Part shown: positions 14,850-46,593 of the stretch, piece by piece
Layout: every line of letters starts with the position of its first letter
Numbering within the stretch: position 1 is the stretch's first letter
From: Beroe forskalii
Lineage: Eukaryota; Ctenophora; Nuda; Beroida; Beroidae
Length of the DNA: 64,000 nt
Assembly (NCBI GenBank): GCA_011033025.1
Contig: WFMF01000026.1
Span: 434,001-498,000, forward strand
Direction of reading: 5' to 3'
Program-made: the position numbers and the translations under genes
The notes under the pieces: generated by a model
What the model was told of the DNA's origin: nothing
Databases searched by the model: none
Seen by the model: only the letters and a program-made list of their open reading frames with translations

Positions 14850-16640
14850 AATTTTAAAGTAATAATAATAATAATTGTAATCTAAGTACACTGCTATTAA
14901 GAAAATACTTATACTCAGCAGTGTAGAACCAACTGAAGCCAAGAGAAAATCAACTAAAAGTTCATTCTAACTGAAAAAGTGCCTTCACTTGAAAGTTAAA
15001 CATTTTCAAAAACAAATACTAAATTTGATCATCACATTGAATACCTAGTAATCAAGAAAAAATTAAAAATTAGTGAGGCACCAAACATGAGTTTCAAAAG
15101 TGCAGAGGTGCAACATCAGCTAATTTTACTCCATCCATAGAACCAGATTTTAAGGATGTGTTTACCAGGTCAACAATGATTGGAAGTAACATGTCAATGT
15201 TGTCTTCAAGTAAATCTTGAGGCAGAATGTCAGCAGGAGAGCACTTGACCCCACTTTCTTTGATGATATCCTTTATCTCCTCCATTGTTGTAGGTACAAA
15301 GTCAAACAGTTGAGAGGATGTTTGATTGAAGTCCTGAACTGAATTTTCACACTTGAATTTCTCATGAATCTTGTCTATCTTATCAATATAGAAGTTGTTA
15401 AATTCACTTGCAAGCCTCTCAATATCATCATTTTCAGGAAGGGTATGACATTCCTGTCTATCAAGCACTTTATTTACAACACTGTATAGTGTGCGAGTTT
15501 TTGCTTCAGATTTCTTTATCACATTTTCTAAATATGCCTTTTTCTTGTCTTTTGCAAGTTCAGATGCCTTGAAACAAAGCTCCTTGTAAAACAAAAAAGA
15601 ATCATCTGACAGATGTTTGGTCCGCTCAGCCTGCCGTCTGAGCTTCCTGAACTCTCTATATTCTTTGTCAAACCATGGAGCTTTATCAACAACTGATATT
15701 GACTTGGAGATGGCTGGGGCATGTTTGTCAAGTAAAGTTTATTATTACTTTAATCAATTTTAAAGTAATAATAATAATAATTGTAATCTAAGTACACTGC
15801 TATTAAGAAAATACTTATACTCAGCAGTGTAGAACCAACTGAAGCCAAGAGAAAATCAACTAAAAGTTCATTCTAACTGAAAAGTGCCTTCACTTGAAAG
15901 TTAAACATTTTCAAAAACAAATACTAAATTTGATCATCACATTGAATACCTAGTAATCAAGAAAAAATTAAAAATTAGTGAGGCACCAAACATGAGTTTC
16001 AAAAGTGCAGAGGTGCAACATCAGCTAATTTTACTCCATCCATAGAACCAGATTTTAAGGATGTGTTTACCAGGTCAACAATGATTGGAAGTAACATGTC
16101 AATGTTGTCTTCAAGTAAATCTTGAGGCAGAATGTCAGCAGGAGAGCACTTGACCCCACTTTCTTTGATGATATCCTTTATCTCCTCCATTGTTGTAGGT
16201 ACAAAGTCAAACAGTTGAGAGGATGTTTGATTGAAGTCCTGAACTGAATTTTCACACTTGAATTTCTCATGAATCTTGTCTATCTTATCAATATAGAAGT
16301 TGTTAAATTCACTTGCAAGCCTCTCAATATCATCATTTTCAGGAAGGGTATGACATTCCTGTCTATCAAGCACTTTATTTACAACACTGTATAGTGTGCG
16401 AGTTTTTGCTTCAGATTTCTTTATCACATTTTCTAAATATGCCTTTTTCTTGTCTTTTGCAAGTTCAGATGCCTTGAAACAAAGCTCCTTGTAAAACAAA
16501 AAGAATCATCTGACAGATGTTTGGTCCGCTCAGCCTGCCGTCTGAGCTTCCTGAACTCTCTATATTCTTTGTCAAACCATGGAGCTTTATCAACAACTGA
16601 TATTGACTTGGAGATGGCTGGGGCATGTTTGTCAAGTAAA
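14850..16640 (-). repeat. 890-bp tandem duplication in LINE A copy 1
   Basis: 14850-15738 and 15752-16640 are almost identical and encode the same 166-residue linker segment. The one difference I noted is an A-run at 15590 versus 16495. Each ends at CATGTTTGTCAAGTAAAGTT. Such identity means a recent duplication, or an assembly duplication. Confidence 0.9.
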
Positions 16641-17487: not shown

Positions 17488-18712
17488 TTAGGCCTTTTGG
17501 TAAAAAGGGATAGTCTTTTTCACCTTTTCAAATTGCTCTAAATAAGCTGGACAGGATAAACTATTGGCTTCATGGTGTGTATCAGCTTGATTAGCCTTAG
17601 TGCAATTCACACAACAGCTGGCTCCAGAGTTAATCTTCACAGTACATGACCTAGTTTCATGGTCCCCACCACAATATCCACACTTGTGAGAGTTCTTGCA
17701 ATCCTTACTATGGTGCCCAAATTCTTGACAATTATAGCAACGAAGCACAAAAACCCTGTCATAAACTTTGCATGTCTGAGACCCAACAAAAAGGCGGTCA
17801 TTCTGTTTGCTAATGACTGATCTGATTACATTACTAACACGGATGGTTGCACGGAAAATATTGCTGTTTTTCTTGAGAGGGGCAACATAAATGACATCCA
17901 ATATTTTATCATCAGTAGATGAGGAACTCTCAATAACTGAGGTTATTCCAGGATTTTGGTTCCTTACCATAGTTGTTATTTCATCCTTTGAGTACTCTCT
18001 ATTCAGACCAACAACATTTATTGTGGGCATTTTTGTAGCAACTTTTTCAACTGTATGCTCAGGGCAATCACTAGCAATTTTTCACGGAGTTTTTCTGCAT
18101 CTGATTTATTGTTGAGAACAATACCAGTGTCTGATGACTTTTTCATGGTGAATGTTTTGTGCACAGAAATCCCATTATCAATACAAATCTGTTCCAATTT
18201 CACTGCATTAACTGGGTTACCATTAACATCTTTCTTAATGGCCATTGTGTGCTTGAGATTTTCAGTACGCTTTGTATCTTCCCAAACATTATTAGACACA
18301 GATTTGGTTGAAGAAGATGTATTGATTGCCTGGTTATGTGAATTGCAAATTGCTGCCTTTAACTCACTCATTTCTGTCTTAAAAGCATTTTTCATTGAGT
18401 CAATTTTTCTTTCAAGGGCATCAACTCGATCAACAGATTCATGAGCTCTCTTTTCCTCCTCACATGTCATACAAAAGTCACAAACAAAAAGAAAACGTCC
18501 AAACCTTTTTTCATATGCTCCTGTGTTATTTACAGCAGGTTGAATCTGATTTGAAAATACTGTTGTTGCACTGACACAATACTTCTCATTTGAACAATTG
18601 ATTGCATGAAACAAGTTCTTGCAAAACCAACATCTGATACAGTGAGCATCAACATTCACATTGGTATTGCATGCATTACATTGACCATCAGTAATAAGGT
18701 TTGTGAAACAAA
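17488..18712 (-). pseudogene. LINE A ORF1 (zinc finger, coiled coil, RRM-like, zinc knuckles)
   Basis: The nucleic-acid-binding ORF1 of LINE A. In order: a Cys/His finger (CNACNTNVNVDAHCIRC, WFCKNLFHAINC), a second Cys pair region (VCDFCMTCEE), a probable coiled coil (DRVDALERKIDSMKNAFKTE), a part starting MPTINVVGL that looks like an RRM, then CCHC knuckles (CYNCQEFGHHSKDC and CGYCGGDHETRSC) and a further CCVNC cluster. A frameshift near 18025 separates a 213-codon frame from a 180-codon frame. The plus-strand copy shows the uninterrupted reading across that point. Confidence 0.8.
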
Positions 18713-20780: not shown

Positions 20781-23700
20781 AACCGGAACAGGCTGTCAGC
20801 CTCCTTCTTACACACGTGACTTGATTGTCGTCGCTAAGTAAGGAGGCGGATAGTTGTATTCTATTCCTTGCTTTCGTAATTTCAAATCACCGCTCACCAC
20901 TTCACCCAATTCATCGCTTTTAAAGTAGTATATTTAGTATTTACTTACTGTATATTTATTCAGTTTTACGTATATTAATTTTCATTCTATAACGGTAAAT
21001 CTTAAGTACTCAGAGAACACCAGACTTTTAAGCCTTTAAAGGTAAGTTATAGTATGACTTTAACAAGATTAAGATGTGATGAATGTAATGTAAAAATCCC
21101 AAAAAAACAATGCATTTTAAGATGTGACATCTGTGATAAGATAAAACATTCAAGGTGCCAAAACCTGACTAAGTCTGATGCAAGCTACATTGAACACCTG
21201 AAACTTCAATGGACATGCACACAGTGCATTACAGATATCTTACCTGTAAATGCGGTAACGAGGCCGCGTTCTAAAAACAATGGCTCGGCTCCAAGGTTCA
21301 AAATACAATGCGCGGCATGTAATGGTTTCTGTTACTCAGAAAGAAATGTGAGAGTATGCACGTGGTGCGAGGGCCAGGTTCATGTTAAGTGCTGGAAGGA
21401 AGGTATCGGGTGTATCTCATGTTGTGAGCAAATGATCCCCGGGTACCATGCATATCACTATGAGCTATTTGATTCTCTAGAATGCAAGAATAACTACACT
21501 TACAACCCATACAGCTCCAAAAACTTCACAATGCAAATCGGTAATGAGTTCGATACAGAGAGCAGTTCAAATAGTATGTGGAATGATATCTCGGAATTAC
21601 TTGTAAACTGTAAGTACAAACAACCCAAGTATGTAAAACCATCAAATGAGCAGGAACTCAGCATTCTTTCGTTGAATATACAAACCCTCCATAGTAAAAT
21701 TGGCGCCGTGCGGGATGACATAGGTTTCTACCAAAAATTTGACGTTTTACTGTTTCAAGAAACCAATGCCATCCTGGACAAACTGCCAAATGGTATCTCC
21801 GATATTCTAATCGAAGGGTTTCACGAACCAATACTTCAGGATCCGATCCGATCGACAGGTAAAGGTGGTGGCTTAGCTATATACGTAAATGAGGCGATTT
21901 GTGATTTCGAGGACATCGTTACTGATATAAATCCAAATCCCGAACCAGAGAACACATGTGGAGAGTTCCAATTCATCAAAATTAAAAACTGTAAGTTTGA
22001 CAATAAGACTTTTATATTAGGTAATGTATACCGCTCACCTTCTAGAATTCCTGATGCATTTAATACCCTTTTTGATACCATACTACAAAAACTGCACCGA
22101 CACACGAAAAATAACGTAATGTATATTGTGGGGGACTTTAATCAAGACCTTATAAAACATGGCAGTGATACCAATTGCCAGAATTTAGTCGATACCGCTG
22201 TCAGCCACGGATTTGTGCAACTTGTTTCGCGCCCAACACGTGTAACTGACAAATCTGCAACTTTAATAGATCATGTTTATACCAATAATGTCGATAGTAC
22301 GCTGAGCTGTAACATTCTCACTGTAAGTCTGACAGATCACTTAGCAATACACACCAAAGTATCTCTAAAATCTAACAGTGAAAACTTGGCACGTAGAACG
22401 CGAAAAGAGGACAAAGAGAACCGCGAATACAGAATATTTAATGATGCTAAATTTAAACAACTTATCGAAAATGAGTCTTGGGATATTTTTTCTAATGATA
22501 AGGACGCGCAGGCACAGTATGACGCATTCTATGACATATACATCCGACATTATAACGAGGCATATCCCTTGAAATCGCAATGTTCACGTCGTAAAAATGA
22601 AAGAAGAAATCCTAAGCCTTGGATTCTCCTCTGGCTTGAGGTTGCCTGTGCTCGTAAAAACCTATTGTACCATGAGTTTGTTAAGGAACCCTCATTAGAA
22701 AAGAAAGGTAAGTACGATAAAATGAAGGAATTTTGCTTAAAGCACGTTAACCTTGCAAAAGCGCAGTATTACAAAAAATATCTTGAGAATTACAAGGATA
22801 ACTCTAAAAAACAATGGCAATTAATCAATAATCTTCTCGGCAGGAAGTCCAAATCTAAAGGGATTAGAAAATTAATCGATGAGAAAGGCAATGTTACCAA
22901 TACAGCCACTGATATTGCTGAAAAGTTCAATGACTATTTCTCCAACATCGCAGCAGAGCTTAAGGCCAAGATGGACCCTGAATTTCATGCGAAAAATGAT
23001 GCACACAGAAAATTTTTAACCGATCGTGTGGAAAATAGTATTTTCATCTGTTCCGTCGCTCCAAGCGACATCCATAAAGTCATAAAAAATTTTAAGAACA
23101 AGGCTACGCAGGATTTGAAAATAAGCTCTCTTAAATTAGCTAACGAGTCCAGGTCTTTCACAGCGGCGTTTGCGAAAGTTATAAACAAATCATTTGACGA
23201 GGGTGTTTTCCCAGAGCAGCTGAAAACGGCAAGGGTGGTACCTATATTCAAAGAAGGATCGAAAACTAGTGTTGGAAACTACAGGCCTATTTCGCTTTTG
23301 GCGTCATTCTCTAAAATATATGAAAAACTTATGCATAACAAAATCATGAATTTTCTCGAATCCAACGAGTCACTGTCTGATATGCAGTATGGCTTTCGGC
23401 CGGGGAGATCTTGCGAGCATGCTTTGTTGAAAGCCCAAGATTCACTTTTAGATTCACTAAATAAGCGCCAGATATCGCTCCTATTACTTATTGATTTTAG
23501 CAAGGCTTTTGATATGGTTGAACATAACATACTACTCGACAAGCTAGAGCACTATGGCATCAGAGGCGTTGCATTAAAATGGATGGCTTCTTATCTGAAT
23601 AACCGAAAGCAATTTGTAACCATTAACGGCTCAGACTCATCCACAAGATCCATGAACTATGGCGTACCACAAGGTAGTATTCTAGGTCCTTTACTATTCA

Positions 23701-24650
23701 TAGTATACATAAAATGACATTCAAATGTCTTGCCAACAGCAAAGTTCATTCTCTACGCTGATGACGCGAACATAATCATAACAGGTTCAAACATCGACGA
23801 GGTATGCTCTGAGCTAGGTGTGCTCACCAAGGTTTTACCACAATGGGTGGGCCACAATGGTCTAGCTCTGAACTTAAAAAAGACAAAATATATGTTATTC
23901 TCGAGGTCTCACAAGGAGCTGAGCTTCCCTCTTAAATTATGCAACAAAACTATTGACCGGGTATCTGAAACAAGGTTTCTTGGTGTAATAGTCGACGAGA
24001 AATTGACCTGGTCCAAGCACATAGAGACTGTGAGAAGTAAGATGTCGCGATACATAGGCATAATGTACACGTTGAAAAACAAATTACCCTTGAAAGCAAG
24101 ATTGCAGATCTATCATAGCTTTATTCAATCGCATGTAAACTATTGTTCACTGGTTTGGGGATTTGCGTCAAAAACGTATTTAGATAGTATCTTCTCCAAA
24201 CAAAAGAAAGGCATGCGAGCTATTGTCCCTGGTTTCATCAACTACAAATACAGAGACGGTGAAATCCCGGGACACACTAAAAAATACTTTCTTGAATACA
24301 GCATCTTAACCATACAGAGTATCATAGTTGCGAACGCCCTGACTTTCATACACAAGGTACGCTATTTCAACTCCTCCCTGCCTAAATCGGTCGCAGAAAC
24401 CATCGCAAATGACTCACCCCAACTTGGAGCGGACCATGTTTCGTGCCAAGACTGGTTATCAAAATATCATAATAACATCTATCTAAAATCAGTCTTTTAC
24501 AAGGGACCTTTGCTTTCCTGTGAGCCGCGTTTCGCTGAATTAGTAACCCCTGAGAATATACTAAAAGTCAAACTATTCAAAAAAAGCGTTAAAGAAAAAA
24601 TGGTAAAAATACAAGCTATAGGAGAAAGTGGCAAATGTAAAGTATAGCGC
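20781..24650 (+). mobile_element. LINE C (CR1-type), near full length
   Basis: A plus-strand non-LTR retrotransposon with about 270 bp of leader, one long frame for PHD-like fingers, endonuclease and reverse transcriptase, and a 3' end running into the GAGCGC repeat array. No separate ORF1 is present, so the copy is either 5' truncated or a one-ORF element. A good splice-donor-like AAAGGTAAGT lies just before the ATG. Confidence 0.85.
21054..24647 (+). pseudogene. LINE C ORF2: PHD-like fingers, EEP endonuclease, RT; one stop
   Basis: One reading frame of 887 codons, then TGA at 23715, then 305 more codons in the same frame. Residues 8-58 and 84-130 are two Cys/His fingers (RCDECNVKIP, CDICDKIKHSRC; CAACNGFCY, CTWCEGQVHVKCW). 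The endonuclease spans about 203-445, with LSLNIQTLHSK, VGDFNQDL and LTDHLAIH. The RT starts near residue 700 (VVPIFKEGS, NYRPISLLASFSK, YGFRPGRSCEHAL, LIDFSKAFDMVEHN, YGVPQGSILGPLLF), and its YADD box follows the stop (FILYADDAN). The stop falls where relatives read YINDxPN; one extra A and one missing C seven bases apart would explain it. Apart from this lesion the frame is open, so the copy is young. Confidence 0.88.
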
Positions 24651-31337: not shown

Positions 31338-31605
31338 ATATGTGTTCTCATAGGTTGAAAGCAACAGGTCGAAAAGTTGGTCGAAAAGTAGGTTGAAAAG
31401 GTAGGTAGAAAGGGCTCAATAAAGACCCTTCTTGGCTTGGTAATTGCAGATCATCCTTTTAATCTTCAAGAGAGATGAGGAAAAGATAGTTCCTGTTGTG
31501 GAAACCATCCAGACTGGGGCACAGTAAAATTTTACATGTCCTTTCGACCTTCTTTTTGACCTACTTTTCAACCTGTTGTTTTCGACCTATGAAGACACAT
31601 ATGCG
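31338..31605. mobile_element. MITE-like inverted-repeat element, 268 bp
   Basis: Terminal inverted repeats of about 65 bp: left with CATAGGTTGAAAGCAACAGG and TCGAAAAGTAGGTTGAAAAG, right (31540-31603) their complement with a few changes. The middle is unique and non-coding. Confidence 0.7.
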
Positions 31606-31866
31606 TTAGGTAATGCAATGTGGAGAGCAGTAGGATCTAAGTGAGTCACACCAAGATGAGTGGTGTGCAGACATCTTCAGTCCAATACCTACTTCAGCTT
31701 AAGGGTGTTTAAACTTACAACACAACACATATTAAATTAACTAACTGAGCTCAATTTCAAGCCCTAAATTCAAGGCATAAAGCTCTGGATTTTCAGCACT
31801 TCAGCTTTCTGTGCTTTCCAAAAACAAGCAAATTTTGGTAGTTTCTCCTGGGGTTCCTCATTTAGG

Positions 31867-32096
31867 ATGTTATCCTTTCAGGGTACTGACACTGAAGAGA
31901 GTGATGAGAATCTCAATACTGCTCCAAATCTTATTACTGATGGACAATGTAAGGCATGTAATACTAATGTGAATGTTGATGCTCATTGTATCAGATGTTG
32001 GTTTTGCAACAACTTGTTTCATGCTATCAATTGTTCTAATGAAAAGTATTGTGTAAGTGCCACAACAGTGTTCTCAAATCAGATTCAGCCCTCTCA
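31867..32096 (+). pseudogene. LINE A copy 2, 5' fragment (start of ORF1)
   Basis: Begins MLSFQGTDTEESDENLNTA and carries the N-terminal finger (CKACNTNVNVDAHCIRC, WFCNNLFHAINC) up to SNQIQP. There homology to LINE A copy 1 stops, and it resumes at 39189 with NNTGAYEKRFGRF. The intervening 7.1 kb is the LINE B insertion and its flanks. The ATG follows a CCTTTCAG tract that could be a splice acceptor. Confidence 0.8.
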
Positions 32097-32560
32097 GAAT
32101 AAAACAAAATTTCAGAATAAAACAAAATTTTCTATTGACATTCCATTAATCATTCCTACATACTGGAAAATATATCAGAACAAATATCTTGTCTTGCTGA
32201 GTATTAGAGGGGTGTTGGTGTTGTGCAATCAGAGTTTGTAAACAAGATAATTCATTTTCCTAGGCTCAGCTCATAAACTTAATAAGGACCTTCCACTTGG
32301 TATTACAAGTGGGCTCTAAAATGAGGGCGGAATGCAGGGTCACAGGGCTTGAGGCTTGTTGTTTCCCTTTAATGAACCATCATTTAAAGCAAGGATAATT
32401 TTATAAATCAAGAGTATATATTCAAGGTGAAGGTGTTACAGTTATATATATATATTGAACTGAACCTAGTTATTGACTGCCTTTTGTTCATAAAAGATTG
32501 CCAATAGTGAGTTTAAAACAAAAATTATATATAAACAAATTATAATATATAACCAAAATA
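32097..32560. other. Spacer between LINE A 5' fragment and LINE B tail
   Basis: Starts with an AGAATAAAACAAAATTT unit duplicated at 32096-32135. Otherwise AT-rich with a TA microsatellite near 32440. No gene seen. Confidence 0.4.
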
Positions 32561-32706
32561 AGTTTTATTGAATAAATAAATAGCATAATTCGATTAGAAT
32601 ATTAAAACATATTCTAGTTTTCCTTTGTAACAAGGGCAACCCATAAATCCAGAGAATGGTTTTGATTATTTGAGGATGTGTGAATGCGACTACTGCTTGA
32701 AATCAA

Positions 32707-35700
32707 CTAAATATGATAGAGGTTTAACTCAATGCTATTCCAACAAGATCTGTCCCATTCATTTGGATCACCATCTGCCTGGATCTCCAACAATTTCTTC
32801 TTGAGCTCAGATTTTATTGAGAGGGATTTGGTATTAAGATCATACATTTTGACAAGGTCACGGACAACATTCCAGATTATGCTTCCATGATATCTAAAAG
32901 TTTTCGTGGGCATTGGTGTCAGTAAATATGTGTCTTTCCCAGCCCTTTTAGAAAGTTCAAATTTGCTGTAAATTCCCATTGGTGATCTAAATTTGAGAAT
33001 TTTAAACATTTCGTTTCCACAGTGATATACATATAGGTTTTGATGTTCATTATCAACTGTGAGTTGAAAAGTGGCTTGGTGTGCTCACGCCTGTAAAATT
33101 TTCATCTAGATGTTGCTCCCCCCATATGGGCAAACTCGTGCACATGTTCTGAATTTATCAAGATATTTTTCTTATTGCCAAATAAGATCCGAATGCACTT
33201 TTTCTGCATTCTAAATAGAGGTTCGAGTTTTGCGTTACTGACACCACCCCATACTGTTATACCATAAGTGAGATGACTTTCAAATAATGTATAGTAGATG
33301 TTTTTAAGAAACTCATCTGGCATGTTGTCTTTGATGACATTTATAACCCCAGTACTACATGATAGCTTTTAGTTAGGTTCCTTATGTGAGCGTTCCAATT
33401 AAGTTTCTCATCAATTGTCACCCCCAAAAATTTTGTTTCTAAAACTCTATCAATTTCATTTTCATCAATTTTCAATACATAATCTGCAGTGTCATTTTCT
33501 TGGATTTCAGTGGGTTTGAAGTCAATGTAACAGCATTTAGACATGTTTATGTGCAATCTGTTCAAGAGCATATAGTAACTAACAGATTTAAGAATTTCAT
33601 TTGCTTTTTTGTAGACTTCTATTTTATCTTTACCACTAACAAATATATTTGTGTCATCTGCAAAGAGGACAAATTCAGCATCAATTTGGGCATTTGAAAT
33701 ATCATTAATGTACATTAAGAAGAGTAGGGGGACAAGGCAGCTACCTTGAGGCACTCCAAATATTGTTTGGTAACTTATCTGAGATTTCATTGAGAACGCT
33801 CACATATTGTTTCCTATCTGACAAATAGCTCTCAATTAATTTCAATGGGATGCCACGAATTCCATAAATTTCGAGTTTTTCAAGGAGTATTCCATGATCA
33901 ATTGTATCAAATGCTTTGCTTAAGTCAATAAATATACCTAATACATGTTTTTTGTTTTGAAGTGATTGATTTATGTGGTAAATTGAATAATTAAGTGCAT
34001 GTGAAGTTGAGTGACCCTTCCTAAAACCGAATTGATTTTCTTTAATTACTCCATTTGATGCAAAAAAGCTATAAAGTCTGGTGTAAATAATTTTTTCAAA
34101 AATTTTCCCAAATATTGGGAGTGTAGACACAGGCCTATAATTTTCTAGTAGTTGTTCATTATCCTTCTTATACACTGGGGTAATTTTCCCAATCTTCAGG
34201 CATGAGGGGAATACTCCCTCTGACATTAAGTTATTAAATTGGGCTGTAAGGATTGGTGTTAAAATTTGGGAGAGTTTTTTTATTACTCGTATGGGAAAAT
34301 CACTTGCCTTGCCATTCTCAAGTTTGCTAATAATTTCAGCAACTTCCTCTTCAGTGCGAGTCCTCAAGAAAAAATGCTCTTCTCAAGGGGAGGGGGGCAT
34401 AAATTTTCTAAAGGAGTTGTTGACCACATTGGCAGTTGAATCTAGATTTACTTTGTCATTGAGATTGGATGCTAAGGATGCAAAGTATTCATTAAACTTA
34501 TTTGCAATTAAGCGGCGCTGTATGATGACTGTGCCATCAATCATGAAGTTTGGCTTTGTAGCTTTTTTGCTCTTGCCTCTCAATTGGTTTATCACTTCCC
34601 ACGTCTTTTTGATATCCCCAGAGGTTTTTTCTATTTTATTTTTGTAGTACTTAGCCTTTTGATCTTTAATGATTCTTTTGAGGGCATGCCGATATTTACT
34701 AAAATTTTCATAAAGAATTTGGTTACCTGTATCAACTGCATTTTTCTTGGTCTTAAACCAGTCAAGATATAAATTATTCTTGTGTTCAATGGCGTCAATT
34801 ATTCCATCAGTTATCCAAGGATTGTTGACAGGATTTCTTTTGGAGTGAATAGCTTTTTTCAATTTGCAGCACTGGTCGACACTATTCGAAAATAATTCAA
34901 AAAATGACTCAAAATCTAGTTCTTTACAAACATCAATTAAGTCACCATTCAGTTCTTCATACAAGGCCTCAATATTTTTATTCGAATAACAGTATTCTTG
35001 TATCTGGATACTGGAGCTGTGATTTTTGCCAGAAAAGTCTATGTTTAAAAATGAGAATATAGGTGAGTGGTGGCTCCCCATCACGAACAACTCCCTGACA
35101 AGCAAACAGCCCCAATATCACTCACTAAGATATTGTCAATACAGGTACTCTGTCTACCAGTGCTATGAGTGGCTAGGGATACCAGGGGGAATAAACCATT
35201 TGAGAGGAATATATTTTCAAAATTAAGCACAGATGGATCTAATCGTTTGAATAAATTAAAGTTAAAGTCACCCATTATTATTGATTTGGTGTTTTTTGGA
35301 AACTGTTCAATTAATGAGGTAAACTCTTCAAAGAACTGTTCATTATCCCCATTTGGAGATCGATATATGGTCCCAATATTTATGTCCTTACCTCATTTTG
35401 AATTGTTAAAAAAGTGATTCCATATTTGAGGAGACTGAACTAAGTTTTCATTTACCACTGCACTAAATGCATCATGGACGTACAGAGCAACCCCAGAGCC
35501 TTTTAGTTTTTCTTTTATTTTTTCACCATAAAAAGCTCTGTAGTTGTCTATTTTGAATAAGGATGATGTTTCATCCTTGTCTATGTTGGTTTCGGCTAAA
35601 CCAATCACTGAAAATTTCATTGATATTGTTGAAAGTTCTGAAACAAATGTGTCAAAGTTTGATTTATTACCATCTATGTTGTAGAATAATGTGCTGAAGT

Positions 35701-36067
35701 CCATTGCTGAATCCAGCTTCAATGCCTCTAATGAATTCGCAAAATAAGTTTTACAGTTGTCTAGTATTGTAGCAGTATCCTGAATGATTGAGATCTCTTC
35801 CTGGACTTCACGGTCATAGAAGTGATCAGAATCAGAGATACCGTTTGCTTCATTATCATAGTCACCAAATGGAGTATACCTTTTTGGTATGGATAACATG
35901 CAGGTTTGACACATTTGTTTTGCGTTGTGATATGAAAATTTTGATTGCTTGTAGCATTTTTTATGGACAATTTTCGAGCAGTTTTCACAGACCATATATC
36001 GATGACCAATAAGTATGTTTCCCTTGCAGCAGTCGCATTTCTCTCTCTCTATATCAACATTCATCAT
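32707..36067 (-). pseudogene. LINE B ORF2: PHD-like finger, EEP endonuclease, RT (broken)
   Basis: Residues 9-56 of the first frame form a Cys/His finger (CDCCKGNI, CENCSKIVHKKC, CQTC). The endonuclease follows, with IGLAETNI, MGDFNFNLF and GSHHSPIF; in the last the usual SDH reads SHH. The RT lies at 34367-33341 (NYRPVSTLPIFGKIFEKI, QFGFRKGHSTSHAL, FIDLSKAFDTIDH, GVPQGSC, LFADDTNIF), followed by tail frames at 33323-33102 and 33009-32707. Breaks lie near 35390, 35100, 34375, 33770, 33340 and 33100. The copy cannot make a full ORF2 protein. Confidence 0.85.
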
Positions 36068-36089
36068 ATCAAAGAATTACAGATGTGAT

Positions 36090-38132
36090 CTAGATTGGAT
36101 TTTCAGGGCCTCCCCTTGTTACATTTGCATATGATCTCCTATCAACAGACTTATTCCTCTTAGATCTGAAAATTGCTTGTTTTATGAGACTGACTAACAA
36201 ACGCACACCTTTAGTGTTGTTGATGTGGAGCACATCATTTCCATCAGCAACTGAAAGATCAGCCCTGAGTAAATATGACTGGTTGTTTACAAAACCGGAG
36301 AAGCCCTCCACAAGGTCTGTCTTGAGATTGGACTGGATGAGATCATTATAGATGTACTTGTTAAACTTGAAGATCCTCTGATTGATGACTGTAGACTTTG
36401 TAGGTAGCACAGGACAGATAAAGATCTTTCCCTGGGGGTTGTGGTGACGGATTTGAGTTATTTTGAGCTTGTATAGCTTGTAGAGTTCACGGATCTCAGG
36501 ATCTGACATGTTGTTTTTCAAATTATTTGTGCCCACCATAACAACAACATTTCTGAATGCTGAGCAAGCAATTGGATCAATGTCAGCAACTTTTGGAGCG
36601 AAGGTTCTGACACCTGGAGTGGCTTGTCCAACTTTTCCCTTTCCAGATCCAAATTGGATCTTTCCAAAATTAGAATCCCCAACCAGGATGGTGGAGTTGA
36701 AGTTGGCCCAGTGCACAGCACGGAATGTCAGACTATATCTCGTTGTTGAATTACCCTCAGAGTCAGACTCAGCCTTCATCTGGTGTTTGAAGTAGTCCTG
36801 GCTAACCCGGGTCATCTCGTACATACTTCTACTCATGCAATGAACTGGTGTCTCCAACCCACTGCCCAAGTTACGAAATGTTATTGTACGAGTTGATCCA
36901 AGGGAGACAGTGAAGATAGAGGACCAGGGACATATATCACCCTCATTATCAGAGTGCTCAGGCAATGATGATTCATTACCCTGGTATCTATTTACCAAAC
37001 ATGAGTTCAGTTCATAGAGGTACCTTTTGTCTGCTTGCTTCCTTGGTATGGCACCATTGATTTTATCCATGACTTTCTTTATTACCTCTGGACAATCTTT
37101 TGGCTTAGTCTTTGACCCCATATACTTGTAGTACTCCCCATATTGAACCACACCACGATTACCCTCCATAACAAATGTTTCATTTTCAAGAAATTCAGTT
37201 ATTTCTCGCTCTTCTTCTTCACTGATAAAGCCTTCAATGAAATCTTCAATGTAGTTTGATTTGTGTGGTGGTATTGAGTCTTCGATTTCAATTGGAGTAG
37301 GGGGATGGTGATGTTGGGCTTGGGGTAACTGATCAAGCTGTGGCAATGGGGAGTCTCTAAAGGCTTCAATTTTCTTCTCCAGTTGCTCAAGTTGTGTTGC
37401 AATAGCACTTATTGACTCCGTGTTAACATTGAGAATATTAGATAGTTTTGAGTCCACCATATTTTCAAAGGAGCTGGTGACAGTTGAGAGAAAGGTGTTT
37501 GCCTGATTAATGTTTTCAAGTGAGGTTTTATCCTTTTCAGACTTGTGGGTTTTGGGACAGGGGAATGGAACAACAAAACACCAGGGACACATCCAATGGC
37601 GCAGGATTGAGTCCAGAACCTCCTGGGTAAGTTTGTCCCCTTTGAGGTTTGCACAGTGGTTGTGCCAGACTTGACCACATGCATTGCAAGTAAGAAGCCA
37701 AGACTTCCCATTAGATGTTGTCTTGCAGGGACATCGTGATTTGAGGGGTCTTCTGGACTGCTTGTCCTCATCCTGGTCATTATTATTTTCAGAGCCACCG
37801 GTGATATCATTCTCCTTCTCCTTTTCCTTCTCTTTTTCCTTCTTCTGAGTTTTCTTTTCATTCATAGGTTGAGGTTGTGATGAGCTTGGCGTTTTTGGTC
37901 CAGCTAACCGCATAGAGCTCCTATGAGGAGTTTCCTTCAGTTTCAGATTGACAGCAGGTGCCTCTGATCGAGTTCTTCTCTGGTTATCCATTTTGAAAAT
38001 AGCAAGCTCTGGGGAAGGGGTTTCCAGGAATACATTTGTCATGAGAAGCAGGTGGAGGAGCACGGCAACCCTAATGGGGATGCCAGAGGTGTGGGGATGC
38101 GGGGCAGGGGCCATGACAGGGGATACCACCAT
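36090..38132 (-). CDS. LINE B ORF1: PHD-like finger, AlkB-like dioxygenase, SGNH hydrolase, 680 aa
   Basis: An uninterrupted 680-codon frame. Residues 91-130 are a Lys/Glu/Asp-rich linker. Residues 134-185 are a PHD-like finger (C134, C136, C149, C152, H157/H159, C160, C182, C185). A possible coiled coil lies at 240-258. Residues 295-475 match AlkB-type 2OG-Fe(II) dioxygenases: H393 and D395 of PEHSDNE, FTVSLGSTRTITF, distal H450, and R465/R471 of RYSLTFR, which would bind 2-oxoglutarate. Residues 482-655 look like an SGNH/GDSL hydrolase: block I VGDSNF (S487), block III VGTNN (534-537), block V DVLH (D633, H636). M48 at 37991 may be the true start, since the first 47 residues look unlike the family. 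PHD and esterase domains are known from CR1 ORF1 proteins; the AlkB module between them is the novelty. A likely but untested role is demethylating the element's RNA. Confidence 0.82.
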   Translation of the reverse strand: MVVSPVMAPAPHPHTSGIPIRVAVLLHLLLMTNVFLETPSPELAIFKMDNQRRTRSEAPAVNLKLKETPHRSSMRLAGPKTPSSSQPQPMNEKKTQKKEKEKEKEKENDITGGSENNNDQDEDKQSRRPLKSRCPCKTTSNGKSWLLTCNACGQVWHNHCANLKGDKLTQEVLDSILRHWMCPWCFVVPFPCPKTHKSEKDKTSLENINQANTFLSTVTSSFENMVDSKLSNILNVNTESISAIATQLEQLEKKIEAFRDSPLPQLDQLPQAQHHHPPTPIEIEDSIPPHKSNYIEDFIEGFISEEEEREITEFLENETFVMEGNRGVVQYGEYYKYMGSKTKPKDCPEVIKKVMDKINGAIPRKQADKRYLYELNSCLVNRYQGNESSLPEHSDNEGDICPWSSIFTVSLGSTRTITFRNLGSGLETPVHCMSRSMYEMTRVSQDYFKHQMKAESDSEGNSTTRYSLTFRAVHWANFNSTILVGDSNFGKIQFGSGKGKVGQATPGVRTFAPKVADIDPIACSAFRNVVVMVGTNNLKNNMSDPEIRELYKLYKLKITQIRHHNPQGKIFICPVLPTKSTVINQRIFKFNKYIYNDLIQSNLKTDLVEGFSGFVNNQSYLLRADLSVADGNDVLHINNTKGVRLLVSLIKQAIFRSKRNKSVDRRSYANVTRGGPENPI

Positions 38133-38140
38133 TACACTAG

Positions 38141-39185
38141 CACCTGAAAGAAAGTTAAGTGGGGAGTTTTGTACAGAATTGGAGTACTGAGTGTAAGAGT
38201 TTGGTAATTAAAATTCTCAACAGTGTCTTCATGTTAATTTTTGATCATTTGAAATTAATTAAACAATACATTTATATAAAACATGTATGCCATGTAACAT
38301 GTCAAGCATATTTGCACAGGTATAACATGGATCATGCAACAGTAAGACAGGAAGGAAGTTTACATAGGCTACTGCCCATGTAGCAAAAATTCTCCTGGTA
38401 AAGAGTAAAAAAGTAAAAAAGTTGAGGTTCTGAAGGCACCCCATATAATTGGAATATCAAGTAATACATGCAATCAGATTCAAATTCAAATCAAATTCAA
38501 ATTCAATTAACAGTATCAACATGTCGTATGAAAGGTGGATCGGAACTTGAATCCTTTTGGCCACCATCAAAGTTAACTCAAAAGAGTAGGACAAAAACCA
38601 GGTGTAAAAATACGCTGGTATCAACTTTGGTTATTATGAATGGCTCGGTTAGGCTGGGGGCGCCTAAACATTCCCATTTTTAAACCTGCCTGTGTTTTTC
38701 TGTTGAAATAATGATAAGAGAGTTGCAAATTAAGAGAGTTCAATGAGATTTCTAATAGACAAGTATAAAAGTTTTCAGAATTTAATATAATATATCTAAT
38801 ATGGTGTGCCTTCAGTTGGCCACTGGATGATTGGGAGGCCACAACACTACTCTTACAATCAATACCAAAAAATAAAAATTTGAGGAGGTCGAGTGCAAAT
38901 ATGCCTGAAGCATATATATGTTTTCATGACATAGAACATGCTAATCCAACACTCATACATCAATACTCAACTTAAGCATGAGGCTTAGTGCTAGTCTTCT
39001 ATGGTATATTCCCAGCATATGGCATGCCCCACATCCTTCGCAAAACTAACACCCCAAAAGGGCGAGCTCACTCCACCTGGGTCCAATTGAACATATCCTT
39101 TTCACCCCAGCCCCATAGCTTTTTTAACTTATTCCATATTTGCACTCGACATCCTCAAATTTGATTGTATAAAGTAGTGTTGTAA
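38141..39185. other. LINE B 5' flank and junction with LINE A
   Basis: No protein-coding signal. It ends with the shared block TTTGATTGTATAAAGTAGTG and GTTGTAAAGTTT immediately before LINE A copy 2 resumes. A short AAATTCAAATTCAA microsatellite lies near 38480. Confidence 0.45.
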
Positions 39186-39188
39186 AGT

Positions 39189-40232
39189 TTAAATAACACA
39201 GGAGCGTATGAGAAAAGGTTTGGGCGTTTTCTTTTCGTTTGTGACTTCTGCATGACATGCGAAGAGGAAAAGAGAGCTCATGCATCAGTTGATCGAGTTG
39301 ATGCCCTTGAAAAGAAAATTGACTCAATGAAAAATGCATTTAAAACAGAAATGAATGAGTTAAAGGCAGCAATTTGCAATCCTGATAATCAGGCTATCAA
39401 AGTATCTAGATCAACTCCATCTGTGTCCAATAACGTTTGGGAAAATACAAAGCGTACAGAAAATTTGAAACACACAATGGCCATCAAAAAAGATGTTAAT
39501 GGGAACCCAGTAAATGCAGTGAAATTGGAAAAGATCTGCATTGACAATGGTATATCTGTGCACAAAACATTCACTATGAAAAAGTCATCAGACACTGGTA
39601 TTGTTCTGAATAATAAATCAGATGCTGAGAAACTCAGAGAGAAAATTGCTAGTGATTGCCCTGAGCATACAATTGAAAAAGTTGCAACAAAAATGCCCAC
39701 AATCAATGTTGTTGGTCTGAATAGGAGTATTCAAAAGATGAAATATCTACAATGTTAAAGAATCAAAATCCTGAATAACCTCGGTCATTGAAAGTTCCTC
39801 CTCTACTGATGATAAAATATTGGATGTTATTTATGTTGCCCTCTCAAGAACAATAGCAATATTTTCCGTGCAACCATCCGTGTCAGCAATGTCATCAGAT
39901 CAGTAATCAATAAACAGAATGACCGCCTTTTTGTAGGGTCTCAAACTTGCAAAGTTTATGACAGGGTTTTTGTGCTTCGTTGCTATAATTGTCAGGAGTT
40001 TGGGCACCACAGTAAGGATTGTAAGAATTCTCACAAGTGTGGATATTGTGCTGGAGACCATGAGACTAGGTCATGTACTGTTAAGAGCAACTCTGGAGCC
40101 AGCTGTTGTGTTAATTGCACTAAGGCTGATCAAGTTGACACACACCATGAAGCCAACAGCATATCCTGTCCTGCTTATCTGGAGCAACTTGAAAAAGTAA
40201 AAAAGACCATCCCTTTTTACCAAAAAACCTAA
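39189..40232 (+). pseudogene. LINE A ORF1 (3' part), frameshifted
   Basis: The first frame (to 39758) gives the finger tail, coiled coil (DRVDALEKKIDSMKNAFKTE), linker and start of the RRM-like part (MPTINVVGLNRS). After breaks in 39730-39970 the zinc knuckles are readable (CYNCQEFGHHSKDC, CGYCAGDHETRSC, CCVNCTKADQ). Order and residues agree with copy 1. The knuckles would bind the element RNA. Confidence 0.8.
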
Positions 40233-45405: not shown

Positions 45406-46593
45406 ATGGCCAGCAAAAAGTTTCTTGTTTGTGCTGCTGCCTCTTTTGGTGTCCTTTATACCATCTTCCTTCATCTTCAAATGTCCTACAACTACTACAA
45501 TGATGCCTGGGAACTTGAAGGAAATCACTTACATGATAATGATCACATTGAACAACATTCAGCTGAACTTAAAAGTGATGTGAAGAAATTTGATGCTTCA
45601 AAAGCAGGAAAAATTGCTGTTATGCTAAATTGTGAGGGTAGGTCTGGATCAACCTGGTTGAGCTCATTCTTCTGGAGAAATCCTAATGTTTTTTATATCT
45701 ATGAACCATTATATCCAGTTCCTTTGAATAAATATGCCAAACAGAAAGCTAACTTGGATGATGATTTTGCCAATGTACTACAAGTTTCTGACATAGCCAA
45801 CTGCAATTTAGAAACGAAAAGTGGGGAAACAATGTTTCCAATGGTTCTTGGAAGGTACCCAAATTATCAGCCATTTTTGAAACATTGTGAAGAAAATAAT
45901 AACTGTCCACCATCATTAACATCATTTTGTCAGTCCAAAAGTCATGTTGTACAAAAAGTTATTAGATTTTATAACATAAGCTACTATCATCAGCTGCAAA
46001 ATAACCTGGAAATGCCTTTAAAGATCATCCACCTTATAAGAGATCCTCGTCCACACATACTCTCAAGGGAGAAGTTTTTTAAGGGTATGTTTAATGATGA
46101 CTTAGACTATAGTAAACTTAGTGAAGCAGAGAAAAGTGATGAAAGAAGAAAATTGTGCTTGCGTGAATATGAAAATCTTAAATTTGGAGATTCTGGTGTT
46201 TTAAATGAGGACACATATTTACGTCTAAGTCATGAGGAAATGTCACTTGACCCATTAAACTGGGCAAAAAGATTATACCAATTCACTGGTCTAGAATTTA
46301 CAGAAGAAACAGAATCATACATAAAAGAGATAACAAATGGGAAGTCTTTGGTTAAAGATGGTAAGGATCCTGATGGAAGATATGCTGGTTTTAGTGTTTA
46401 TAGGAATACACTTTCTGTCCTTTATAATTGGATGTCTGCCAAAGCAAAACACGTACACAACATTGAAAAAGAATGCAAGGAAGTACTTGATTATCTTGGT
46501 TATGTAAATGTATATGATGATGAATTAAATTTAATTAACAAAAATCCATGGCCAAGGCTAGTTGATGATGAAAATGTCCCATTAAAAATATGA
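45406..46593 (+). CDS. Carbohydrate (GlcNAc/Gal-type) 6-O-sulfotransferase, type II membrane, 395 aa
   Basis: A single-exon Golgi sulfotransferase of the CHST1-7 group, which moves sulfate from PAPS to the 6-position of Gal, GalNAc or GlcNAc in glycans. Residues 1-5 are cytosolic, and 6-26 are one hydrophobic signal anchor. A stem follows, with the catalytic domain from about residue 68. The 5'-phosphosulfate loop is GRSGSTWLSSFF at 78-89. The 3'-phosphate site is HLIRDPRPHILSR at 209-221, with Arg212 and Ser220. YIYEPLYPV (97-105) fits the family, and Asn190 is in a glycosylation sequon. The length is normal (390-480 in vertebrates) and the frame is intact. Single-exon organisation is common in this group. 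The exact acceptor sugar cannot be told from sequence. Confidence 0.88.
   Translation: MASKKFLVCAAASFGVLYTIFLHLQMSYNYYNDAWELEGNHLHDNDHIEQHSAELKSDVKKFDASKAGKIAVMLNCEGRSGSTWLSSFFWRNPNVFYIYEPLYPVPLNKYAKQKANLDDDFANVLQVSDIANCNLETKSGETMFPMVLGRYPNYQPFLKHCEENNNCPPSLTSFCQSKSHVVQKVIRFYNISYYHQLQNNLEMPLKIIHLIRDPRPHILSREKFFKGMFNDDLDYSKLSEAEKSDERRKLCLREYENLKFGDSGVLNEDTYLRLSHEEMSLDPLNWAKRLYQFTGLEFTEETESYIKEITNGKSLVKDGKDPDGRYAGFSVYRNTLSVLYNWMSAKAKHVHNIEKECKEVLDYLGYVNVYDDELNLINKNPWPRLVDDENVPLKI

Follow-up and report, generated by a model that had tools for sequence, protein, structure and literature searches.

A LINE ORF1 protein of the ctenophore Beroe forskalii that joins a PHD-like finger, an AlkB-type dioxygenase and an SGNH esterase

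The first open reading frame (ORF1) of a retrotransposon in Beroe forskalii encodes, as read from its sequence, a multi-enzyme protein: a PHD-like finger, a long helix, an AlkB dioxygenase, an SGNH esterase and a basic tail follow one another in a single chain. ORF1 lies on the minus strand at 36090..38132 of the window, the whole 64,000-nucleotide stretch of DNA analysed here (contig WFMF01000026.1, positions 434,001 to 498,000); it starts with ATG, is intact over 680 amino acids, and is almost certainly the first ORF of an APE-type non-LTR retrotransposon (LINE) family, probably one of ctenophores. The arrangement is conserved and is paired with an ORF2 in many genomic copies, and the AlkB and SGNH parts adopt their folds in a structure model. 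A preliminary description had proposed just such a 680-codon LINE ORF1 with PHD, AlkB and SGNH parts, 22 bp before ORF2. Pfam searches, relatives and genomic copies support it: the spacer is as claimed (ORF2 starts at 36067) and the residue numbers are correct (finger 134-185, H393, D395, H450, R465, R471 and the SGNH blocks); the strand, which it had left out, is added here.

The AlkB-type 2OG-Fe(II) dioxygenase (36708..37271, minus strand; residues 288-475, with H393, D395, E397, H450, R465 and R471) is seen in Pfam, PDB searches, alignment and model alike. Pfam was scanned with the window ORF1 at E <= 1 and, one by one, with 69 family sequences (the window ORF1 and 68 relatives) at E <= 0.01: 2OG-FeII_Oxy_2 (PF13532) covers residues 324-471 (E 6.5e-14; 53 bits against a curated cut-off of 31.2) and matches all 69 sequences, so the lack of an AlkB profile, on which the preliminary description was ready to be given up, did not materialize. 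Human ALKBH2 is the first PDB match of the single ORF1 sequence (phmmer, E 3.7e-6), and a profile built from the 69 sequences finds ALKBH2 (7e-17), ALKBH3 (8e-14) and ALKBH8 (2e-11). The AlphaFold2 model has an AlkB fold in this part, which superposes on ALKBH3/ALKBH2 at 2.0 A; the two rank level in the fold search, and the fold is nearer to them than to FTO. Identity between the LINE AlkB and human ALKBH2/ALKBH3 is about 24-25%.

The neighbouring parts are recognized by similar means. The SGNH/GDSL esterase (36168..36695, minus strand; residues 480-655, with S487, G507, N536, D633 and H636) is placed by Pfam, PDB profile, alignment and model, and has block I (GDS, 485-487), Asn536 and the D633/H636 pair; Lipase_GDSL_2 scores E 1.7e-4 in the window ORF1, below the cut-off for a single protein, and matches 58 of the 69 family sequences, whose profile finds a PAF-acetylhydrolase-like structure (2e-6) and the ZfL2-1 ORF1 esterase 4c1b (0.0016) in the PDB. 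The PHD-like finger (37578..37733, minus strand; residues 134-185) presents eight Cys/His ligands; PHD_4 is again below cut-off (E 5e-4) and matches 29 of 69 sequences, and the profile finds the PHD finger of BPTF (0.0017) and also DIDO1. Residues 197-259 (37356..37544, minus strand) form a long helix in the AlphaFold2 model (ten-residue blocks have a pLDDT of about 56-86); by analogy with ZfL2-1, it is probably a coiled coil through which the protein may dimerize (PMC3905857). The chain ends in a basic tail (36093..36167, minus strand), delineated in alignments of relatives, with an RxYxNxxRGG-like motif that recurs in many of them and is missing from some rows (e.g., P0043 and P0054). Pfam finds no separate RNA-binding domain, RRM and transposase-22 included, in the window ORF1 (E <= 1) or in the 69 family sequences.

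How well are the two enzymes kept? A search of 5.8 billion proteins returned at least 156 relatives at E <= 0.001, and a profile search at least 135 at E <= 1e-10. In a 140-row alignment (the window and 139 database relatives), the AlkB residues are nearly invariant (H393 and D395 in 140 rows, H450 in 138, R465 and R471 in 139 each), as are those of the esterase (S487 in 139, N536 in 138, H636 in 133, D633 in 128). Among the 133 rows that cover both enzymes, whose pairwise identity has a median of 36% and a minimum of 24%, the HxD...H metal ligands and the RxxxxxR motif, as defined in PMC544882, are complete in 132 (the exception, P0100, has H450Y), the catalytic Ser, Asn, Asp and His of the esterase in 127 (five of the six exceptions are at D633, and one is gapped at D633 and H636), and all nine residues in 126. 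Could the AlkB fold be a mere nucleic-acid-binding module, its chemistry unused? Esterase-type ORF1 proteins come without folded RNA-binding domains (PMC3905857), and an AlkB fold could supply one; but pure binding needs no metal or 2OG ligands, and with five catalytic residues kept in 132 of 133 rows this explanation is very improbable.

AlkB and SGNH distances correlate at 0.81, against 0.10 for the best of 200 permutations, and the two trees, with 64 and 65 well-supported splits, have 38 of these in common; the 15 conflicting pairs of well-supported splits may point to some exchange or to errors in the trees. The relatives that carry an organism name come from the lobate ctenophores Bolinopsis microptera (P0023, P0114) and Mnemiopsis leidyi (P0032, P0065, P0115) and from one bacterial MAG (P0110); the latter, deposited as AlkB of a Saccharospirillaceae MAG, is probably a contaminant, animal DNA in a bacterial bin. 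A search for stand-alone AlkBs gave eight matches, two of which (P0128 and P0129, 28% identity) look stand-alone; a viral-contig scan with P0129 found no match, and among phages three records with distant AlkBs came up. No relatives of ORF1 turned up in viral and prokaryotic contig collections, which says little because the collections are viral and prokaryotic.

The genome itself (a 216-Mb assembly in 1134 contigs) holds at least 72 ORF1 matches, of which 20 copies were fetched; with the window they make 21 rows. ORF2 sequence follows on the same strand in 18 of the 20 (L037 and L041 have no ORF2 match), starting within 31 bases of the ORF1 end in 17 of these and after 192 bases in L040; reverse transcriptase sequence is found in 17 of the 20, L050 having ORF2 sequence without it. 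ORF1 followed by an endonuclease-reverse transcriptase ORF2 on the same strand is the layout of an APE-type LINE. Both ORFs are open in L039, L044, L047, L048 and L049 (ORF2 longer than 1000 codons, stop to stop), the last three with incomplete PHD ligands. In the four open ORF2s that were run against Pfam, RVT_1 is above cut-off in all, and endonuclease models match all four at E <= 0.01, two of them above cut-off. The full set of AlkB and SGNH residues is present in 20 of the 21 rows, the exception being the truncated L035; 15 rows have all eight PHD ligands, and some copies have no finger.

These copies also settle whether the fusion is a chance event or annotation artefact of one dead copy, an outcome that the preliminary description had accepted as grounds for discarding its reading. 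The broken ORF2 of the window copy speaks for it; against it stand the conservation over 140 rows, the genome matches and the ORF2 pairing, and many copies and distant relatives share the arrangement with both sites kept. The explanation is rejected with near certainty. Only five copy pairs are close enough for dN/dS. L048/L050 gives 0.24 (AlkB) and 0.01 (SGNH), and window/L031, from few changes, gives 0.16 and 0.10; at a dS of about 0.02, L039/L041 (0.52 and 0.72) is uninformative. Two pairs with L035 (0.75-0.82) are artefacts because the frame used for L035 leaves the homologous stretch; the same fault makes the PHD value for window/L031 (0.49) suspect.

In the window copy itself, ORF2 is dead. 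The remains (32707..36067, minus strand) comprise an N-terminal Cys/His finger, the APE endonuclease and the reverse transcriptase, disrupted by in-frame stops and frameshifts. The whole insertion (32092..39189, minus strand; left border uncertain, about 32092-32106) sits inside ORF1 of a plus-strand LINE, as shown by an uninterrupted homologue at 18400-18703, which matches in two segments (88.5% and 91.0% identity). There is an 11-base overlap between the flank matches; because the bases on the left lie in the 3' repeat of the element and differ, there is no clear target-site duplication. This repeat, two exact 18-bp tandem units at the element's 3' end (32094..32129, minus strand; family D14 of the repeat search), marks the insertion border. 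CR1/L2 elements usually have short 3' repeats and weak target-site duplications; the ORF2 finger and the 3' tandem repeats are only leads towards placing the element there. On the insertion's 5' side, beyond the coding part, is a MITE-like inverted repeat without strand assignment (I1, 38876..39162; 28-nt arms, 96%), and pieces similar to it occur elsewhere in the window. The window contains other sequences of note. Another LINE ORF2 (21054-24647, plus strand), open but for one stop, has two N-terminal Cys/His fingers, and no ORF of at least 125 aa was found in the 2.4 kb upstream of it. Identical 166-aa frames (15094-15594 and 15999-16499, minus strand), 905 bp apart inside yet another LINE, may be either a tandem duplication or an assembly artefact. 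A 395-aa single-frame sulfotransferase (Pfam PF00685) lies at 45406-46593 on the plus strand.

Which known ORF1 proteins come closest? Type IV ORF1 proteins, known from zebrafish ZfL2-1 and CR1/L2 elements (PMC3905857, PMC4120745), likewise have an SGNH esterase with Ser, Gly, Asn and DxxH, a helical part (a probable coiled coil) before it and a gag-like place before the endonuclease-reverse transcriptase. Type IV is defined by a coiled coil linked to the esterase with no other folded nucleic-acid domain, and neither an RRM nor any other structural RNA-binding domain was found to accompany the esterase (PMC3905857); in the window ORF1, by contrast, the helix is separated from the esterase by AlkB and preceded by a PHD-like finger. 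PMC4120745 found esterase ORF1 types in two vertebrate L2/CR1 groups only and mentions no dioxygenase. From the same source come type III ORF1 proteins with a PHD and the L2 subgroup 5 ORF2 with an N-terminal PHD, which likewise have a finger in ORF1 and a Cys/His finger starting ORF2; unlike these, the window ORF1 lacks an RRM/transposase-22 match and unites PHD, AlkB and esterase in one ORF1. GDSL ORFs are also described in bdelloid elements (PMC5408684).

The preliminary description knew of no named system with this arrangement. In the open-licence literature covered here no LINE with AlkB was found, but an AlkB-bearing retroelement, an orchid Ty3/gypsy, has been published (PMC9289625), and it is of the LTR kind. 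Both are retroelements with an AlkB-type demethylase, and ALKBH5-like m6A activity has been shown in vitro for the orchid protein; the orchid case is a plant LTR element with AlkB in a separate ORF, a recent acquisition by the paper's title, whereas the window family is an animal LINE with AlkB fused in ORF1, closer to ALKBH2/3 and present in several diverged lineages. Nor does the window element look like an LTR element: the repeat search found no long direct repeats in 31500-39500, the endonuclease matches are of the APE type, and Pfam gives no integrase match in the four open ORF2s. Plant RNA viruses such as Flexiviridae also carry AlkB in their own replication protein on a mobile RNA genome, with RNA repair discussed (PMC544882); theirs is a replicase that works without reverse transcription, as opposed to a retrotransposon packaging protein. 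As far as the open-licence literature covered here reaches, this would be the first AlkB in a LINE.

The family is not alone in its genome. Pfam finds at least 150 AlkB matches there (150 of 189 candidates were scored), all above cut-off; of the 150 listed, 50 overlap ORF1 matches and 100 do not, 56 of the latter in frames of at least 400 codons. Among the matches listed, a GDSL match directly follows AlkB in 9 of the 50 and in 10 of the 100; the model is insensitive here, so its absence means little. Seven of the 100 loci were read. L051 (C1112) is a 502-aa frame with AlkB and then GDSL, the order seen in the window, and no PHD match; downstream come a frame without Pfam match and an endonuclease match (L053). 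L054 (C969), a 509-aa frame whose AlkB is 36% identical to that of the window, has an SGNH-like stretch recognized by eye only, no PHD match and an endonuclease frame next. By their layout and endonuclease matches, L051 and L054 are two putative further LINE lineages. The order is swapped, GDSL before AlkB, in L052 (G000:C847:365600-368600), a 2026-aa frame that continues into a long Pro-rich repeat, and, by coordinates only, in the 1169-codon frame at G000:C225:192371-193480. GDSL frames of about 396-413 aa with no listed AlkB within 1.5 kb (e.g., on C132, C287, C314, C394, C436 and C1091) are possible esterase-only relatives.

The remaining four loci read, L055-L058, are host-type AlkBs: L057 is an ALKBH2 orthologue (E 5e-38 to human ALKBH2), and the others were judged by eye. 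In a tree of 19 AlkB sequences, with domain ends cut by script and an extra tail in two rows, these four group together (UFBoot 92) and the transposon domains fall outside; L051 and L052 cluster with the family (90), whereas the position of L054 and other deep nodes are weak (several 32-54). A recent capture of the host ALKBH2 is not supported, since the LINE domains lie outside the group formed by the four host-type sequences.

What, then, does a LINE do with a dioxygenase? The answer favoured here, tentatively and at slightly less than an even chance, is that the AlkB domain repairs the RNA template of the element before reverse transcription. ORF1p would multimerize on the element's own RNA; its ALKBH3/ALKBH2-like AlkB domain would strip Watson-Crick-face methyls (m1A, m3C) from it; and, with the methyls that impede reverse transcription gone, ORF2p could copy the template. 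Lipids or membranes may be the target of the esterase, as has been proposed for ZfL2-1, and chromatin that of the PHD-like finger. Template repair is the strongest reading because the residues and fold are ALKBH3/2-like, the domain is fused to a packaging protein, and m1A impedes reverse transcription, a hindrance that AlkB relieves (PMC12140624, on AlkB and an R2-type reverse transcriptase); that many copies keep both active sites suggests a self-cleaning of the template by the element. The substrate cannot be read from the fold by itself (AlkB substrates are treated in PMC11431407), since ALKBH2, a dsDNA enzyme, ranks level with ALKBH3 and the LINE AlkBs lie outside the host-type group.

The closeness to ALKBH2, the best match by sequence profile and as good as ALKBH3 by fold, would also suit a role on DNA: repair of m3C/m1A, including 3mC made by host DNMTs, in the nicked target, the cDNA or the silenced element, such that the new copy is neither lost nor blocked. 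DNMTs make 3mC and co-evolve with ALKB2, CG methylation occurs within Mnemiopsis genes (PMC9246332), and the finger suggests contact with chromatin; yet the host has its own ALKBH2 orthologue, so that some particular reason is needed for the element to carry a further one, and LINE ORF1 proteins are presumed to package element RNA (PMC3905857), which leaves this role unlikely. Alternatively, the domain might take m6A, or a different regulatory mark, off the RNA of the element and so help it evade host surveillance or alter translation, a role already suggested for the orchid Gypsy element; this is unlikely for a fold nearer to ALKBH2/3 than to FTO, the orchid protein being described as ALKBH5-like (PMC9289625). 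In human L1, m6A helps rather than hinders, and retrotransposition is suppressed by its eraser ALKBH5 (PMC7873242); this weighs against m6A erasure and also against the favoured template repair, since a LINE does not always profit from demethylation. Action on some other substrate (tRNA, rRNA, protein side chains or host mRNAs), changing the cell to the element's benefit, is quite improbable for a domain fused to a LINE packaging protein, where the RNA of the element is the nucleic acid closest at hand.

If template repair is right, the family would be the first non-LTR retrotransposon known to encode a template-demethylation step of its own. A demethylase site kept intact over deep divergence suggests that methyls on the template limit retrotransposition, at least in some animals, and the AlkB of ORF1p is a protein with which this can be tested. 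Should it act on m1A/m3C RNA, such an enzyme might also aid RNA sequencing, a use to which bacterial AlkB has already been put (PMC12140624). At least 150 AlkB matches in a 216-Mb genome are a warning that "AlkB" gene models may be transposon proteins; several relatives are named "AlkB" in their source. The family adds a new enzyme class to LINE ORF1s, and it is conceivable, though held with somewhat less than even confidence, that ctenophore LINEs have an ORF1 class of their own with a standing demethylase for self-repair of the template, a class that spans three or more diverged lineages and has its domains in more than one order.
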